From NCBI GenBank assembly GCA_022701275.1, contig CP031740.1, positions 2,367,001 through 2,431,000 on the forward strand: 64,000 nt of DNA. Reading direction: 5' to 3'. Positions 32,570-39,124 of this stretch are shown here, piece by piece. How positions within the stretch are numbered: position 1 is the stretch's first letter; each line of letters opens with the position of its first letter. The notes under the pieces are model-generated. The model worked only from the letters and a program-made list of their open reading frames with translations, did no database searches and had not been told where the DNA came from. The position numbers were made by a program, and so were the translations under genes. The DNA is from Microcoleus vaginatus PCC 9802 (GTDB taxonomy: Bacteria > Cyanobacteriota > Cyanobacteriia > Cyanobacteriales > Microcoleaceae).

Positions 32570-33514
32570 ATGACAAGCTTGGATTTAAGCAGCAAACGCA
32601 TTCTAGTAACAGGTGGTGCCGGTTTCTTGGGCCGTCAGGTAATCGACCAGTTAGTCAAAGCAGGGGCCGATGCTGATAAAATTTCTGTGACTCGATCGCG
32701 TGACTGCGACCTCCGCATCATGGAAAACTGCAAGCGCGCCGCCGACCAACAAGATATCATCATTCACCTCGCCGCCCACGTCGGCGGCATCGGTTTAAAC
32801 CTAGTCAAACCCGCTGAATTATTTTACGACAATTTGATGATGGGCGCGCAACTAATCCACGCCGCCTACGAAGCAGGAGTCGAAAAATTTGTCTGCGTCG
32901 GCACGATTTGCGCTTATCCCAACTTCACCCCAGTTCCTTTCAAAGAAGATGACCTGTGGAACGGCTATCCAGAGGTAACTAACGCACCTTACGGAGTAGC
33001 GAAAAAAGCCTTATTAGTGCAACTGCAATCCTACCGCCAGCAGTACGGATTCAACGGTATCTACTTGCTACCAGTAAATCTGTACGGCCCGGAAGATAAC
33101 TTTGACCCAAAAAGTTCCCACGTCATCCCCGCATTAATTCGCAAAGTCTACGAAGCGCAAGAAAGGGGAGACAAAACACTGCCAGTTTGGGGCGACGGCA
33201 GCCCTAGCCGCGAGTTTTTGTATTCCACAGATGCCGCGCGGGGAATTGTGATGGCGGCTCAATCTTACAGTGAATCTGACCCGGTTAATTTGGGAACGAA
33301 TAGCGAAGTTAAAATTCGCGATTTAGTGGAAACGATTTGCGAATTGATGGGATTTGAGGGTGAAATTGTTTGGGAAACAGACAAACCGAACGGTCAGCCG
33401 CGTCGCTGTTTGGATACGGCAAGGGCTAAGGAAAAGTTTGGTTTTGTTGCGGAAGTGAAGTTTAAGGAAGGGTTGAAAAATACGATTGAGTGGTATCGAA
33501 AACACGCAGTTTGA
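32570..33514 (+). CDS. fcl: GDP-L-fucose synthase
   Basis: 314 aa. It epimerises and reduces GDP-4-keto-6-deoxymannose to GDP-L-fucose with [22 protein letters not shown] is the nucleotide-binding loop. [20 protein letters not shown] and the catalytic CVGTICAYP with the YxxxK motif YGVAKKA follow. [23 protein letters not shown] is family-specific. Together with gmd it makes a complete two-step GDP-fucose pathway, feeding the glycosyltransferases upstream. A strong terminator follows 6 bp after the stop. Confidence 0.96.
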
Positions 33515-33562: not shown

Positions 33563-33890
33563 TGGTGAATAGAAGTAAATCAGCAGAAAGAACTTTTCAG
33601 TAAAGCTTATGTACCCGCTGTGGTGGCAGTTGCAGGTTTTTCAGTCGATTGGCTAGAGTTAGACTTTGAAAGCATCGAGCGGCAAATCACTGCTGGCAGC
33701 GGTGAAGGAAGCGTTAGTTTTCCAGAGAGTTGAAGTTACAGTTAAAATGTACTTCCAGGGATGTAATAGATGGCGATCGGGTGAGATTTCTGCTCAAAGT
33801 CAAGAACTACAACGATCTAACAAGGAACGTCCGAATACCCCGCATCTGGGTTGTCGTTTTAGTCCTAGACATAGAGATCTTCAGGGCGAA
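33563..33890 (+). pseudogene. DUF4365 gene remnant, frameshifted
   Basis: Three frames together read the family pattern. NRSKSAER comes from GTG near 33563. ELFSKAYVPAVVAVAGFSVDWLELDF then comes in a second frame that ends FPES-stop. LQLKCTSRDVIDGD and KVKNYNDL follow at 33730-33860 in a third frame. DUF4365 is a predicted nuclease-like domain often found in defence and accessory regions. The C-terminus is lost where Uma2 sequence begins near 33885. Confidence 0.7.
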
Positions 33891-34406
33891 ACCTCTGCAA
33901 GGGCTGGTGCAAGCGATGCTCACGTGACGGTTGCCGCCAACTTATTGGCACTTTTGAGAAATCATGTTCGGCGTAGTGGCTGTCGTGTCTATATGTCGGA
34001 CATGAAAGTTAGGATTGAATCTTAGAATATTTACTACTATCCTGACGTGATGGTAACGTGCGATGAACGGGACAAAGCTTTTCAATATTATAAAAAATTT
34101 CCTCGTTTAATTGTTGAGGTTTTGTCCCATGTTACTGAAGGATTCGATCGGGGCGATAAGTTGACTGACTATCAAGAATTAGAAAGGCTTCAAGAGTATG
34201 TGTTAATTAGCCAAAAACGGCAGCGGGTAGAGTGTTTTCGTTGCAAGGCTGAAGGGTTGTGGGTTTTGTATTCCTATACTCTAGGAAGCGAAATTCACTT
34301 GGCTAGCGTAGATTTTCGCACAGGTATTGATACTATTTATGAGGATGTAATTTTTACTAAGGAAGATTCAGAAGCAGAATTTGAGGAACTGCGATCTAGG
34401 GGATAA
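33885..34406 (+). pseudogene. Uma2-family (DUF820) nuclease remnant with in-frame stop
   Basis: The frame runs HVTVAANLLALLRNHVRRSGCRVYMSDMKVRIES-stop-NIYYYPDVMVTCDERD and ends near 34406. TAG at 34023-34025 interrupts it, and the first 50 or so residues of the family are missing. The PD-(D/E)xK-like pair YYPDVMVTCDE and LIVEVLS is still visible. Uma2 proteins are very abundant in cyanobacteria and of unclear function. Upstream sequence is the DUF4365 remnant, so a deletion joined two unrelated genes. Confidence 0.8.
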
Positions 34407-34548: not shown

Positions 34549-36798
34549 TTACAAACATTCTCCCTGGGTATCCCAAGGAATGTTGGCGAAAAAAACCCTG
34601 AGTTTCTCCAGATTTATGATAATCTCTTCAATTCGTTCTTTTGACTGGGTATCAGGTGAAGTAATTTCATGCAGATGCTTAAGAGACTCTTTACATTTTG
34701 CTTCAACTGCATCCGCACCTTTCTCAAAGGCTGTGGCTGTCTCTTGCCAATACTGGTCGATTCCTTCTAAGAATTTATCAACAATACCCTGTTTTTTGAA
34801 TTGTTGGTGAATTTCTTTTGCTAACCGCTTCTGCCAAGCTTCCCCAAAACGATTCCACACAAAAGAAGCCAGTCCAGCAGCTAAACCGATCCCTAGAACT
34901 ATTGGGCCACCAATCGCAGCTACGAAAGAAATTACTGCTGCCGTGCCACCACCGATACTAATACCAAGTGCTGACAAAAGACTGACTAATTTCGCTACTA
35001 AGATATAGCTGCCAAGATTGCCAAGGCCTGCTGCCCAAGCGGCTAAGGCACCATAAGCACCTAATCCCGCTATCCCACCAAGAAAAGCTCCTTTTGTATC
35101 GAAGGGAATAGAGACTACTGTTCCGTCTTTGTTGGGAAGCTTAGGTACTGGGTATTTTTCCAGAAAAGCGTCAATCTCAGCCTTGAGTTTTTCAGAATTG
35201 ACACTAATCCGATTTTCTACATGACTTTGTAGCAGATCGAGTAAATAACCGCGAGCGTATTCTTGAGCCTCTTTCTGTTTGTCGTATCTCTGGCGAATCA
35301 TTTGTTCTATGGAATCTACATCAATCTGTTTTTCCGCATAGGTCTGAAATGATTTGCGAGTATCTTTCTCTAATTCCTTAATTTGTTTGCTCACTTGACT
35401 GCGTTTTTGCCGCATTTCTCGCTGACGTTCAGGTTCATTTTTCTCCGCTTTCTCAAGCTCTTTTCGATACTCCTCTATTTTTGCAACAGTTGTTTGATAT
35501 TGCTCAATCGAGTTAGCGTATTCTTGGTTTTTGTCCTTTTTGACCGCATTAATTTCGCGGTCGATACGAGAGATGACTGTTTTAGGAAGAGTCTCGCAGA
35601 GGAGTTGAGTTAAATCATCAAAGAGACGCTGACAGCGCTCCGGCCTTTCTGACCAGAAAGTGAAGAAACGCTTTTGCACATCTTCCTTCGTAATATCCCG
35701 CTTTGTTAGCTTCCGACGAAACTCTATAGCAGTTTCATCAAGTTCTTTATACAGTCTGGCTGAAGCTTTATTGAGAATTTTGGGAAGCTCATCGTCAGGG
35801 ATACTCGGATCTGCGTGTGTCGCCACAATAAAGAAATTGCCTAGCGTCGGAAAGTCATTGCATTCATTCTCTGGGGCCGGCAACAAACGCAGCAAATTCC
35901 GAAGTCGCACCATATCTTGACCATTGATGTGACCCTTGGCAGGAGAAGCATAAAGCAAGACATTAGCAATCTTGGTGGCACTATTAGCTTTCTCAACATC
36001 CTTTGATACTTCATCTTGTTTATCAGAGTAACCGGGAAGGTCAATCAGGTTACACGCTCTTAACAAAGGAGCATCTACATAAACTATAGCTGTATGTCCG
36101 CCGTCATTGCTGTCGTCAGAGTCATCATATTGGTGTACGCCATATTTTTCTAGCAGGTCAAAGGAGCCGAATTGCAAAAAATGCTTCTGACAACGCTCCC
36201 GATCCTCTAAATATAGGAAGTCAAAATTTAGCTTGCCGTTTTCATCTTGCCAAAATTTCTCCTCAATAATTCCCACGTTTCCATCAAACCATTCGGGGCG
36301 ACTTTCCACATGACAAACAATGGTAATGACTCTTGTTGCAGGCTGATAGCCTGTTGGCAATACTTTTTGACCTAAAAGAGTATTAGCAAGATAGGATTTA
36401 CCAGAGTCAAATGCTCCTGTCAAGACAACATTTGGTTTTTGGTAATACTGGTTAATTTGTTCTTGCAGAGCGTTAGGTTTACGTAGTTCCGTTGGCAATT
36501 CTAGCCAAGGTAAAAAAGAATTTTCATCGATATACTGATTAAGTAAATTTAGCCGGCGATAAAGTTCAGCGTAGGGACTGCCTGGTTCAATTCCTGGGAG
36601 TGGAGGTATTTCCTCTGACATGGCAGTTGTAATGTCAACACCTAATATTTGCAGCCATTTTACTGCCATTCCCATCGGAACTTTTGCAGGGAAATGCTCA
36701 TAATTTTTAACCTGATCTACAGAAATGCCGATCCCGCTGGCAACTGATTCTGGACTGATACCTTTCTGTTCCCGATAGCGTCTAAAATTAATGTTCAT
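34549..36798 (-). CDS. HTH-fused dynamin-like GTPase
   Basis: 749 aa. Residues 1-52 are an XRE-type helix-turn-helix (FRRYREQKGISPESVASGIGI). A dynamin-type GTPase domain follows: G1 GAFDSGKS (128-135), then G3 DLPGYSDKQ near 258 and G4 THADP near 335. A charged coiled coil (about 430-500) leads to a hydrophobic hairpin region (about 575-660, GIAGLGAYGALAAWAAGLG and GPIVLGIGLAAGLASF) like the membrane paddle of bacterial dynamins. A DNA-binding domain on a dynamin is unusual. Bacterial dynamin-like proteins act in membrane repair and in antiphage systems (for example Leo-type Eleos). The divergent HTH-STAND gene shares its promoter region. I infer a self-regulated stress or defence GTPase; function unproven. 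Confidence 0.85.
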   Translation of the reverse strand: MNINFRRYREQKGISPESVASGIGISVDQVKNYEHFPAKVPMGMAVKWLQILGVDITTAMSEEIPPLPGIEPGSPYAELYRRLNLLNQYIDENSFLPWLELPTELRKPNALQEQINQYYQKPNVVLTGAFDSGKSYLANTLLGQKVLPTGYQPATRVITIVCHVESRPEWFDGNVGIIEEKFWQDENGKLNFDFLYLEDRERCQKHFLQFGSFDLLEKYGVHQYDDSDDSNDGGHTAIVYVDAPLLRACNLIDLPGYSDKQDEVSKDVEKANSATKIANVLLYASPAKGHINGQDMVRLRNLLRLLPAPENECNDFPTLGNFFIVATHADPSIPDDELPKILNKASARLYKELDETAIEFRRKLTKRDITKEDVQKRFFTFWSERPERCQRLFDDLTQLLCETLPKTVISRIDREINAVKKDKNQEYANSIEQYQTTVAKIEEYRKELEKAEKNEPERQREMRQKRSQVSKQIKELEKDTRKSFQTYAEKQIDVDSIEQMIRQRYDKQKEAQEYARGYLLDLLQSHVENRISVNSEKLKAEIDAFLEKYPVPKLPNKDGTVVSIPFDTKGAFLGGIAGLGAYGALAAWAAGLGNLGSYILVAKLVSLLSALGISIGGGTAAVISFVAAIGGPIVLGIGLAAGLASFVWNRFGEAWQKRLAKEIHQQFKKQGIVDKFLEGIDQYWQETATAFEKGADAVEAKCKESLKHLHEITSPDTQSKERIEEIIINLEKLRVFFANIPWDTQGECL

Positions 36799-36884
36799 AG
36801 CATTCTGCTACCCGCTAGTTTAACCCACAAGAAGTTATTGGTTTTTTATAATTATCTTCTAATTATAAATTTATCGAAGTAATA

Positions 36885-36975
36885 AAATGTCAAATTTTAT
36901 CAGCAATTGAGACGAGCGATATGTCTGAATTGGTCAGAAATGTCAGAAAATGTCATAAAAAGTCTGATAAAATAA
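36885..36975. promoter_or_regulatory. Tandem TGTCA-type repeats between the HTH-dynamin and HTH-STAND genes
   Basis: GGTCAGAAA, TGTCAGAAAA, TGTCATAAAA and AGTCTGATAA follow one another from 36932 to 36975 at about 10-11 bp spacing, on one face of the helix. ATGTCAAATT (36887) and ATGTCTGAA (36921) are outlying copies. TAATTATC/TAATTATA repeats lie nearer the dynamin start (36848-36868). The helical phasing suggests cooperative binding by an HTH protein, and both flanking genes encode one. Confidence 0.6.
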
Positions 36976-37000
36976 GAAAAAACCCTACACCACTCGACCA

Positions 37001-38428
37001 ATGGACGTTAAAGAAGTCTTGAGATTTGCCGAGGAGCTGGTTTTCGCCAAAACAGGAGAACACTTGGACGATCTGCAAGAAGCTATCTTGCGGGGTGCAT
37101 GGAAAGGTCAAAGATACTCTAAAATTGCAGAAGAATTTCACTGCACTGAAGGTCATGTCAGAAATGTAGCCTCTGAATTATGGCAAGTTCTCTCTAATGT
37201 CTTAGGTGAAGAACTCAATAAATCAAATTTTAAAACAACATTAGAAAGATGTCGATTCTCAATTATTTCATCAAAGTTTGCGAAAGACTGTACACAAATT
37301 AATAATGTCAATGTTTGTGGAGACACTTTGCAACCTCCCGAAGTTCCAAAAGAACGATCGCCCTCAACCCCCACCTCAGACACCTCCCAACCCCAAACCA
37401 GACTAGACTTAGCAGACGCACCTCATATTTCATTATTGTGCGATTCGCCTGATGGCGATAGCTTCGCTTCACGCACATCCGAACTCGCCACCCTCGAAAA
37501 ATCTATCGTCGAAGACAAGTGCAACCTTGCAGCCATATTAGGAATAAGCGGCATTGGCAAAACCGCACTTTCCCTCCACCTAATACAAAAAATTCAGCAT
37601 AACTTTGAATGCGTCATCTGGCGAAGTCTCCGCCACTCCCCACCCTTAGAAACTACCCTAAAAACTCTGCTAGAATTTCTCTTAAATAAACCAGCAATCG
37701 AACTCTCTAGCAGCATCCCCGATCGACTTTCCCTGTTAATGGAATATCTGCGAAAAAACCGCTGTCTCATCATCTTCGACGACGTGCAAACCATTCTCAG
37801 CAGCGGACAACTAGCAGGAAATTACCGCCCAGAATGCGAAAATTACAGCATTCTATTCAGACAAATCGGAGAAACAACCCACAACAGTTGTTTAATCCTC
37901 AACAGTTGGGAACCACCCAGAGAAATTACCGCCTTAAAAGGTGAAAATTCCCCAGTGCGCGCCTTGCAACTCAAAGGCATAGGTATAGCCTCTACCGAAA
38001 TTTTCCGACATAAAAGGTTACTCAATCCCGAAAAATGGGAAAACCTAATTAACGCCTACCGAGGCAATCCATTGTGGTTGAAAATAGTCGCCACCACGAT
38101 TCAGGAAATATTCCGAGGTAGGGTTGCAGAATTTTTAAAATATGATAGGCTATTCTTAGGGGAAGAATTGGCAGCAACATTGCACCCGCAGATAAATCGT
38201 TTGTCAGAATTAGAGAAAAAGCTAATCTCCCAGCTCAGCCACGAAGTGAATCCAGTTTCAATAGAGCAGTTGCTAAAAGATGCGGATTTATCGCCCTCCG
38301 AGTTATTCAACGGGCTGCAATCTTTGGGGAGGCGATCGTTCGTTGAAATAGAAGAACAGGAGAATGAAACGCTATTCAGCGTTTGTCCTGTGGTGAAACA
38401 ATATGTGGTTTCAAATCCAGTTAATTAG
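37001..38428 (+). CDS. vMAP-type HTH fused to STAND NTPase (NB-ARC-like)
   Basis: 475 aa. Residues 1-75 are the cyanobacterial vMAP N-terminal HTH (FAEELVFAKTGEHLDDLQEAILRG..YSKIAEEF). A variable Pro/Ser linker reaches about residue 140. The NTPase has a P-loop GISGIGKTAL at 181-190, Walker B RCLIIFDDVQTIL and an ILNSWEPPREI block, then a winged-helix region. There is no C-terminal WD40 or TPR sensor, which most family members have, so the protein ends at the switch domain. STAND NTPases are ligand-activated switches, including the bacterial Avs defence proteins. It is divergent from the HTH-dynamin gene across 200 bp. Role inferred only. Confidence 0.82.
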   Translation: MDVKEVLRFAEELVFAKTGEHLDDLQEAILRGAWKGQRYSKIAEEFHCTEGHVRNVASELWQVLSNVLGEELNKSNFKTTLERCRFSIISSKFAKDCTQINNVNVCGDTLQPPEVPKERSPSTPTSDTSQPQTRLDLADAPHISLLCDSPDGDSFASRTSELATLEKSIVEDKCNLAAILGISGIGKTALSLHLIQKIQHNFECVIWRSLRHSPPLETTLKTLLEFLLNKPAIELSSSIPDRLSLLMEYLRKNRCLIIFDDVQTILSSGQLAGNYRPECENYSILFRQIGETTHNSCLILNSWEPPREITALKGENSPVRALQLKGIGIASTEIFRHKRLLNPEKWENLINAYRGNPLWLKIVATTIQEIFRGRVAEFLKYDRLFLGEELAATLHPQINRLSELEKKLISQLSHEVNPVSIEQLLKDADLSPSELFNGLQSLGRRSFVEIEEQENETLFSVCPVVKQYVVSNPVN

Positions 38429-38524: not shown

Positions 38525-39124
38525 ATGAATACTGCTGAACCTTCATTAACTAAAACAGAATTAAGAAAATCGCTCCTCAACACCCGCAAATCCCTATCAG
38601 CACAAGAATGGAGACAAAAGAGCGATCGCATCTGCAATCACCTACAAAACTCGCCCCAATTCACCGAAGCAAAAACAATCCTCGCCTACTTCAGTTGTCG
38701 CCAAGAACCAGATTTAAGTCCCCTATTTGTAACTCACCGCAAATGGGGATTTCCACGCTGTGTCGGCAAAGAGCTATCTTGGCACATCTGGCAGCCCGGA
38801 GACGCTTTACATACTGGAGCTTATGGCATACTCGAACCCCTGCCGGATGCTCCTAAAATAGATTACTCAGAAGTAGATTTAATCCTCGTACCCGGTGTAG
38901 GCTGCGATGTTCGCGGGTATCGCTTGGGCTACGGCGGTGGCTATTACGACAGAATGCTCAGTTTAGCTGAGTGGGAATCACAAATTACGATCGGCATTAT
39001 CTTTGAATTTGCCTTGCTTGCCCAACTACCAGTTGACTCCTGGGATAAACCGCTGCACGGAATTTGCACGGAAAGCGATTTGACAATCGTACAGCAAAAA
39101 TCAAGAAGGTCGATCGAGCAATAA
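38525..39124 (+). CDS. 5-formyltetrahydrofolate cyclo-ligase
   Basis: 199 aa. It converts 5-formyl-THF to 5,10-methenyl-THF with ATP. LTKTELRKSLLNTRKSL is the usual N-terminus with basic ATP-binding residues. ILAYFSCRQEPDLSPL and the C-terminal VPGVGCDVRGYRLGYGGGYYDRML (nucleotide-binding glycine-rich region in two parts) are diagnostic. A plus-strand single gene. The next gene begins 102 bp downstream, so co-transcription is possible. Confidence 0.93.
   Translation: MNTAEPSLTKTELRKSLLNTRKSLSAQEWRQKSDRICNHLQNSPQFTEAKTILAYFSCRQEPDLSPLFVTHRKWGFPRCVGKELSWHIWQPGDALHTGAYGILEPLPDAPKIDYSEVDLILVPGVGCDVRGYRLGYGGGYYDRMLSLAEWESQITIGIIFEFALLAQLPVDSWDKPLHGICTESDLTIVQQKSRRSIEQ

Follow-up and report, generated by a model that had tools for sequence, protein, structure and literature searches.

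Two genes of Microcoleus vaginatus PCC 9802, encoding a dynamin-like GTPase with an N-terminal XRE-type helix-turn-helix (HTH) and a STAND NTPase, are transcribed away from each other across a short gap that carries regularly spaced repeats, raising the question of whether they form a dedicated unit and what the repeats do. We analyzed this pair in a 64,000-nucleotide stretch of the 6.7-Mb single-contig source genome (the window; G000:C1:2367001-2431000), for which a sequence-only reading had proposed one regulated stress or defense unit. Both open reading frames (ORFs; 749 and 475 residues) were recovered with the extents and strands assigned by that reading, and its gap of about 200 bp measures 202 bp (Table 1). 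The locus exemplifies a constant regulator with its own operator and an exchangeable cargo, an arrangement that is real, conserved and more general than first proposed. We consider it probable that the STAND protein is an HTH switch of the CED-4 kind that lacks a sensor domain and controls both itself and an exchangeable, often envelope-directed cargo.

The STAND protein and its phased upstream array

The P-loop domain of the STAND protein matches NB-ARC with 37.3 bits against a Pfam cut-off of 23.5, which places it in the AP-ATPase clade. Its AlphaFold2 (AF2) model (mean pLDDT 83.1) is composed of an HTH, a disordered linker (residues ~92-130), a nucleotide-binding domain and helical domain (NBD-HD), and a winged-helix domain (WHD; about residues 387-475) with which the chain ends, leaving no C-terminal sensor repeats in the model. 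Helices 39-45 and 50-68 are arranged as an HTH, in agreement with the domain that had been annotated as a "vMAP HTH"; the vMAP label itself was not reproduced, and this N-terminal HTH was not named above cut-off by Pfam, NCBIfam or PADLOC. The best fold matches in the PDB and the best sequence-profile matches are the cores of plant NLRs, CED-4 and Apaf-1, with which the protein has the NBD-HD-WHD arrangement and P-loop in common and presumably also a nucleotide-dependent assembly switch. It departs from these resistosome proteins in carrying an N-terminal HTH rather than a CARD, coiled-coil or TIR domain, in having no LRR or WD40 sensor, and in an output that would be DNA binding. Many of the phylum-wide relatives listed (e.g., L206) lie in open frames of ~1200 residues, perhaps WD40-type fusions.

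The gap upstream of the STAND gene contains five GTCW cores, starting at 36923, 36933, 36942, 36952 and 36962. Their number agrees with the at least four TGTCA-type repeats noticed earlier, and their steps of 10, 9, 10 and 10 bp correct the spacing of 10-11 bp that had been reported. A five-core array appeared in none of 5000 dinucleotide shuffles of positions 36799-37000, in which the longest chain had three cores, and no other GTCW chain of at least three was present on either strand of the window. The sole location of an exact match to GTCWKAAAAWGTCWKA in the genome is this array, the last core of which abuts a candidate -10 box. A scan of positions 36700-37100 found no sigma-70-type promoter with a -35 element and no terminator.

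This phasing extends to the family. When the upstream regions of 96 family genes are pooled, self-matching 5-mers peak at a distance of 10 bp, where they number 571; mononucleotide shuffles gave 35 and gene interiors 71. Secondary peaks lie at 20, 29 and 39 bp. In 81 loci, the cores concentrate around positions -40/-50/-60, -80/-90 and -130/-140 relative to the STAND ATG and TANAAT is most frequent at -34/-35, the longest uninterrupted chain comprising two or three cores in 63 loci and up to six overall. The proximal sites fall in the -35/spacer region, a placement that suits an autorepressor, or an activator standing in for sigma region 4 in the absence of a -35 element. A number of loci have distal sites ~70-90 bp away from the ATG of the partner, a distance that would suit cargo control. 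Furthermore, with regular 10-bp steps the cores all face the same side of the helix, as expected of an oligomer assembled side by side.

The repeats also contain AAAA(A/T) at 10-bp steps, and A-tracts spaced in this manner are expected to curve DNA, so the array could be promoter-bending DNA whose cores hold no specific information. We attach very little probability to this alternative, given that the non-A part of the repeat varies between paralogues in step with recognition-helix residues, and that exact double sites are restricted to their own loci: in the source genome, the GTCA double site is confined to the locus studied here (two overlapping occurrences) and the GTAG double site to a paralogue of the Lys-Lys type at 3.82 Mb, whose cores are GTAG.

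Table 1. Features of the divergent pair and its flanks, in positions of the window.
Feature	Position	Strand	Basis
Sugar epimerase gene (flank)	32570-33514		Pfam
Split Uma2 gene; its two ORFs align to consecutive parts of a single profile	33666-34406	+	Pfam
Bacterial dynamin-like GTPase, 749 aa, N-terminal XRE-type HTH; cargo gene	34549..36798	-	Pfam, AF2, fold match
Presumed membrane paddle of dynamin, aa 553-651	34846..35142	-	AF2 model; role proposed
Dynamin_N GTPase domain, aa 124-290	35929..36429	-	Pfam
HTH_3 (XRE) domain of dynamin, aa 6-57	36628..36783	-	Pfam
Perfect palindrome with 10-bp arms, weak candidate operator for dynamin XRE domain	36845..36869		Sequence
Solitary distal GTCA site	36889..36894	+	Sequence; distal cluster near -130/-140 common in family
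Putative phased tandem operator array, five GTCW cores	36923..36967	+	Shuffle test
TAAAAT, candidate -10 box of STAND promoter	36968..36973	+	Abuts last GTCW core
HTH-NB-ARC STAND regulator, 475 aa	37001..38428	+	Pfam, AF2 model, fold match
Helix-turn-helix, aa 39-68; helix 50-68 taken as recognition helix	37115..37204	+	AF2 model
Gly51 codon, covaries with operator base 3	37151..37153	+	Covariation
Asn55 codon, covaries with operator base 4; top column of covariation scan	37163..37165	+	Covariation
NB-ARC match, aa 165-263	37493..37789	+	Pfam
5-FTHF cyclo-ligase gene (flank)	38525-39124		Pfam

Recognition-helix covariation and exchange of divergent partners

Operator cores differ by paralogue, taking the forms GTCA, GTCGG, GTAGG, GTGGG, GTACG and GTATG. 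The N-terminus of the regulator was located in 96 of 97 loci (all but L170), and L171, which has a wrong start, was counted among the 96 and left out of the code analysis, leaving 95 loci. A regular expression for phased cores assigned an operator class to 81 of these; in a larger set, it found a phased core in 90 of 116 loci, and inside genes for only seven of these 90. Scanning aligned columns 1-195 with at most 20% gaps for covariation with operator class, residue 55 was the top column at all four redundancy cuts, with permutation z-scores, which ignore kinship, of 28.8, 15.7, 8.1 and 6.6 at 81, 49, 29 and 17 loci, respectively. In the larger set, residue 55, which sits in the second helix of the model HTH, was the top-ranking column for base 4, and the two leading columns for base 3 were residues 51 and 55.

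The residue-base table, summed over 97 loci with orthologues included, pairs residue 55 with base 4 as Asn-A (31/33), Asp-G (31/34), Lys-G (15/18) and Glu-A (6/8), and residue 51 with base 3 as Gly-C (45/49), Ser-A (8/12) and Asp-G (3/3). The core predicted from the residue pair was right in 48 of the 58 scorable full-length loci. The sequence-only reading had the DNA-binding domains controlling their own promoter; for the STAND HTH, this covariation supplies a link to the operator, and constitutes indirect evidence that each STAND protein may bind its own array. A universal rule by which residues 54-55 give the core was discarded, as it fails in distant loci, with residue 51, the best column for base 3, explaining part of the failure. 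Seven loci combining Asn55 with Ser51 contain, by plain counts, GTAC in all seven (1-4 copies) and also GTCA in five (1-2 copies); the simple Asn55 rule therefore does not hold there.

The regulator is widespread. At E<=0.001, all but five of 148 related genomes (143) contain STAND relatives, frequently with at least ten matches (about ten candidates were scored per genome). At E<=1e-30, relatives were found in 95 of the 386 phylum genomes, spanning 57 of 142 genera; the source genome contains 14 matches, four of which span nearly the whole query. Counting as a partner any divergent gene of at least 65 codons that lies 51-619 bp from the STAND gene, with no longer tandem gene cutting it off, we found one at 88 of the 96 STAND loci (L171 included), and two of the remaining eight (L102 and L166) have a divergent gene nearer than 51 bp. 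These partners fall into 45 sequence clusters. Among the 38 clusters of at least 100 residues, 27 show membrane or signal features by a simple and crude hydropathy classifier, which assigns them to 103 of 252 ORFs of the background (Fisher p = 7e-4) and to 66 of 185 matched in size. Pfam searches with ten partners identified two AIG1 GTPases encoded at one locus, DUF4189, a pilin N-methylation motif and a JAB match below threshold, with four partners lacking any match and one having a sub-threshold match only.

Regulators that are 80-90% identical over their N-terminal 195 residues have a homologous partner in 27 of 82 pairs, and those more than 90% identical in 11 of 23, indicating that partner swapping is general. 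Three paralogues of the source genome (G000:C1:3823176, 5306249 and 873298) have different residue-55 types and face, respectively, a 154-residue relative of the AIG1 group, a 423-residue protein with one hydrophobic segment and a 195-residue Gly/Ala-rich protein; the match at 3823176 contains one stop.

Swapping is also seen at a single chromosomal site. In 14 genomes of the genus, the source included, the STAND gene adjoins one or both of the same flanking genes, and its partners there are of six kinds: the HTH-dynamin (G000, G018, G012 and G020), an AIG1 GTPase pair (G027 and G010), a 105-residue hydrophobic protein (G013, G002, G024 and G004), a 168/169-residue secreted-type protein (G028 and G001), a pair of 159 and 158 residues (G025), and a 203-residue membrane-type protein followed by a 112-residue protein resembling the 105-residue one (G006). 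Synonymous divergence (dS, Nei-Gojobori) of the STAND gene remained at 0.22-0.41 in 12 comparisons regardless of that of the flanks, which was 0.06-0.19 in G020, G002 and G013 and 0.44-0.77 in G018, G006 and G025. The dynamin gene, for its part, showed dS of 0.06-0.19 in three genomes, including G018 despite its far flanks. The nonsynonymous to synonymous ratio was 0.29-0.37 for the STAND gene, 0.18-0.37 for the cyclo-ligase gene and 0.02-0.14 for the other flank genes. The dS pattern fits cassette exchange by recombination, and passages of a study on Microcoleus report gene flow from outside lineages affecting 1.5-29% of its genomes (PMC10923798).

A proposed autoregulatory switch and its alternatives

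We propose that the STAND protein is an autoregulatory transcription switch built on the core of CED-4, Apaf-1 and plant NLRs, in which a DNA-binding HTH would take the place of the CARD or coiled coil and no C-terminal sensor follows. Several subunits would bind the 10-bp-phased array side by side on one helix face, upstream of their own -10 box, with Gly51 and Asn55 of each HTH recognizing a single GTCA core, and nucleotide-dependent assembly on the array, or release from it, would set the expression of both the STAND gene and the divergent cargo, at this locus a putative membrane-remodeling dynamin with an XRE domain of its own. The pair would then represent a single allele of an exchangeable cassette: regulator and operator would be retained, and recombination across species would replace the cargo. 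Since paralogue operators have diverged, several such switches could coexist in a genome with little cross-talk.

STAND NTPases fused to a DNA-binding domain and acting at repeated sites near promoters are known from regulators of the MalT/AfsR type. The likeness lies in this combination, with binding at the sites described here predicted from sequence; the differences are the N-terminal position of the HTH, the lack of a TPR sensor, operators that have diverged between paralogues and an exchangeable divergent target. Within the open-license literature we found neither HTH-NB-ARC regulators with swapped divergent partners nor a code of this type, which is weak evidence of absence. A catalogue of cyanobacterial sigma70-type proteins lists NB-ARC and WD40 among their accessory domains (PMC11119718). 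Its sigma70-region-4-like NB-ARC/WD40 fusions, which are treated there as sigma factors, may include some of the same proteins, and the passages concerned make no mention of operator arrays, partner swapping or a recognition code.

More tentatively, these loci might constitute a genus-wide pool of NLR-like cassettes in filamentous cyanobacteria, with HTH and operator coevolving under a two-residue/two-base code and recombination bringing in constantly changing, often envelope-directed cargo. The tandem array would template an NLR-like oligomer, turning a resistosome-style switch toward a gene-expression output, and the pool, organized as a library of regulator-cargo alleles that can be exchanged, would serve as a self-recognition or defense repertoire; we regard this extended scenario as possible and rather doubtful. 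If the proposed autoregulatory switch is right, the NLR/Apaf-1 core would be linked to promoter control through a readable protein-DNA code, and the many paralogues with their diverged operators would provide near-orthogonal switches and a clean test of STAND oligomers on DNA. A defined site with a fixed regulator and exchanged cargo would also offer a route, via one switch, to the functions of many uncharacterized proteins, such as the dynamin, the AIG1-type GTPase pair, the glycine-rich hydrophobic proteins and the small secreted-type proteins.

Several observations weigh against the proposed switch. In addition to the disregard of kinship in the z-scores, the regular expression behind the operator classes was written after viewing the upstream sequences and the HTH alignment, well-supported branches of the trees hold just 2-6 independent switches, and all eight sign tests had a median p above 0.05 (range 0.125 to 1). 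Of 28 newly fetched, mostly distant loci, 22 have no phased core, and the core predicted from the residue pair was right in two of the five that could be scored (L243 and L257) and wrong in three (L244, L247 and L261); exceptions among closer loci are the Lys-Asp regulators with GTAG cores at L134, L146 and L147. The privacy of the operator is not absolute, as allowing one mismatch yields 11 further GTCA-type matches in the source genome, the same count as for a reversed control pattern, and one of these 11 precedes the Lys-Glu paralogue at 5.306 Mb, which shares the GTCA core; something beyond the core must therefore keep these two operators apart. Regarding the partners, control of the cargo is proposed from the divergent layout and the distal sites, and in some loci the cargo gene begins at a distance of over 370 bp; a divergent upstream neighbor is also found for 108 of 257 ordinary genes of at least 150 codons by a similarly crude caller (STAND genes included); and when short clusters are included, 27 of all 45 partner clusters are of membrane or signal type.

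Some of these points, namely the few independent supported switches, the non-significant sign tests and the weak prediction in distant loci, would also fit covariation that reflects inheritance by descent without functional coupling. We judge this explanation improbable, because residue 55, which lies in the presumed recognition helix, is still the best column at the 60% redundancy cut (n = 17), and because almost no independent changes run in the opposite direction. With the HTH columns left out of the tree, 3.6 of 4 independent supported-branch pairs changed the same way between Asn55 and an A at base 4, and with full-length proteins 3.7 of 6 did so, against 0 and 0.1 the opposite way. The other three contrasts of each analysis gave 1.3-3.8 of 2-6 pairs the same way and 0 opposite, and 25 control columns (residues 62-98, with 6-15 pairs each) reached at most +1.9 net.

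The diversity of the partners, together with the many dynamin genes beside which no STAND gene was found, might instead suggest that the genes are accidental neighbors whose divergent arrangement has no functional meaning. The proportion of STAND genes with a close divergent partner, compared to that of ordinary genes under the similar caller, and the pairing of one dynamin family with different STAND paralogues both argue against this, and we consider it very unlikely.

The dynamin cargo and the flanking genes

The 749-residue protein combines the Dynamin_N GTPase domain and the helical stalk fold of bacterial dynamin-like proteins, and the top PDB fold match of its AF2 model (mean pLDDT 79.8) is BDLP (2j69). 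Most of the low-confidence stretches of the model fall within residues 553-651, between the two halves of the stalk. The GTPase and stalk fold are common to BDLP (2j68/2j69), from which the protein differs in its additional N-terminal XRE domain and, in some genomes, a divergent STAND partner. An HTH on a dynamin, previously described as unusual, proved not to be rare: HTH_3 or a related domain occurs in many of 113 dynamin homologue clusters, and the name "XRE-family regulators" is given to them by several sources.

Across the order, scoring few candidates per genome, the dynamin was found at E<=1e-60 in 21 of 388 genomes. A STAND relative lies divergently beside it in eight of these (G000, G018, G012, G020, G091, G030, G509 and G497), none was found in 12 (upstream DNA was examined to at most ~1.5 kb in seven and further in five; L077, L079-L082, L271-L276 and L279), and one genome holds fragments only. 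The STAND neighbors are different paralogues, belonging to at least three groups by best match to the query panel, and the pairing has therefore arisen or moved more than once. The dynamin and STAND genes had been read as one unit whose co-occurrence could be checked across genomes; the shared divergent control region and the recurrence of the pair support this in part, but the association is not a dedicated one, as the six kinds of partner and the dynamin genomes with no STAND neighbor found make clear. In G091, a hydrophobic 115-residue ORF lies between the STAND and dynamin genes (L076, 7707-8054), giving a three-gene form, and G497 (L278) has a 115-residue ORF in the same place, with length and spacing as in G091.

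The recurrence of the divergent pair with at least three STAND groups, the NLR-like fold of the STAND protein and PADLOC matches of the dynamin to the LeoA and LeoBC profiles would be in line with a co-evolved, dedicated antiphage unit of a STAND sensor and a dynamin effector, as would a Bacillus subtilis dynamin-like protein that is reported to confer phage resistance (PMC8844932). The STAND gene is, however, retained with five other kinds of cargo at the same site, no STAND neighbor was found in 12 of the 21 dynamin genomes, and the modeled STAND protein has no sensor domain; we hold such a unit to be unlikely, and a defense role of the pair to be no more than possible. The Leo matches are partial (E about 1e-12), and their best-scoring stretch lies C-terminally, inside residues 394-734 and outside the GTPase domain. 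Eleos shares with this locus the dynamin GTPase and its Leo profiles, but there LeoA and LeoBC dynamin genes occur together, whereas here the XRE HTH is fused to the dynamin and no second dynamin was seen among the neighboring proteins scanned with Pfam; a search of the source genome at E<=0.001, which could miss more diverged dynamins, returned only the self-match.

Antiphage STAND proteins of the Avs type are large, with an N-terminal effector and a C-terminal TPR sensor. The 475-residue protein, in its model, consists of HTH, NBD and WHD only, and PADLOC gave a marginal match for it and none to Avs. The ternary VMAP/iSTAND conflict systems, described in passages of two studies as enriched in multicellular forms, including cyanobacteria, and as having swappable effectors (PMC7159879, PMC8195603), resemble the locus in their STAND or related modules and differ in their MoxR and vWA components; neither a MoxR ATPase nor a vWA protein was present among the six focal and neighboring proteins scanned with Pfam.

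The palindrome in the gap begins 71 bp upstream of the dynamin ATG. Its arms are reduced to 7 in G018, G012 and G020, and it was not found in the other dynamin loci scanned, so we rejected it as a general XRE operator. The dynamin genes of G124 and G063 resemble each other in a stretch upstream; in G063 it contains TTATGCA...TGCATAA palindromes (imperfect in G124) that are possible XRE operators.

Between the epimerase and cyclo-ligase genes lie the split Uma2 gene, the dynamin gene and the STAND gene. The Uma2 remnant, which had been taken to fit a defense island, is real and split over two ORFs (33666-34025 and 34047-34406), but longer and apparently intact Uma2-like ORFs of 201-207 residues occur at the same site beside other cargo in G028 and G002. 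We regard it as flotsam of a variable site rather than as a defense-island component or a part of the system. In G020, the dynamin gene (L075, 8441-11983) is broken after residue 683 and followed by a 481-residue ORF, which we take to resemble an IS66-type transposase, and a match to the last 71 dynamin residues lies ~1.5 kb further along (L024).

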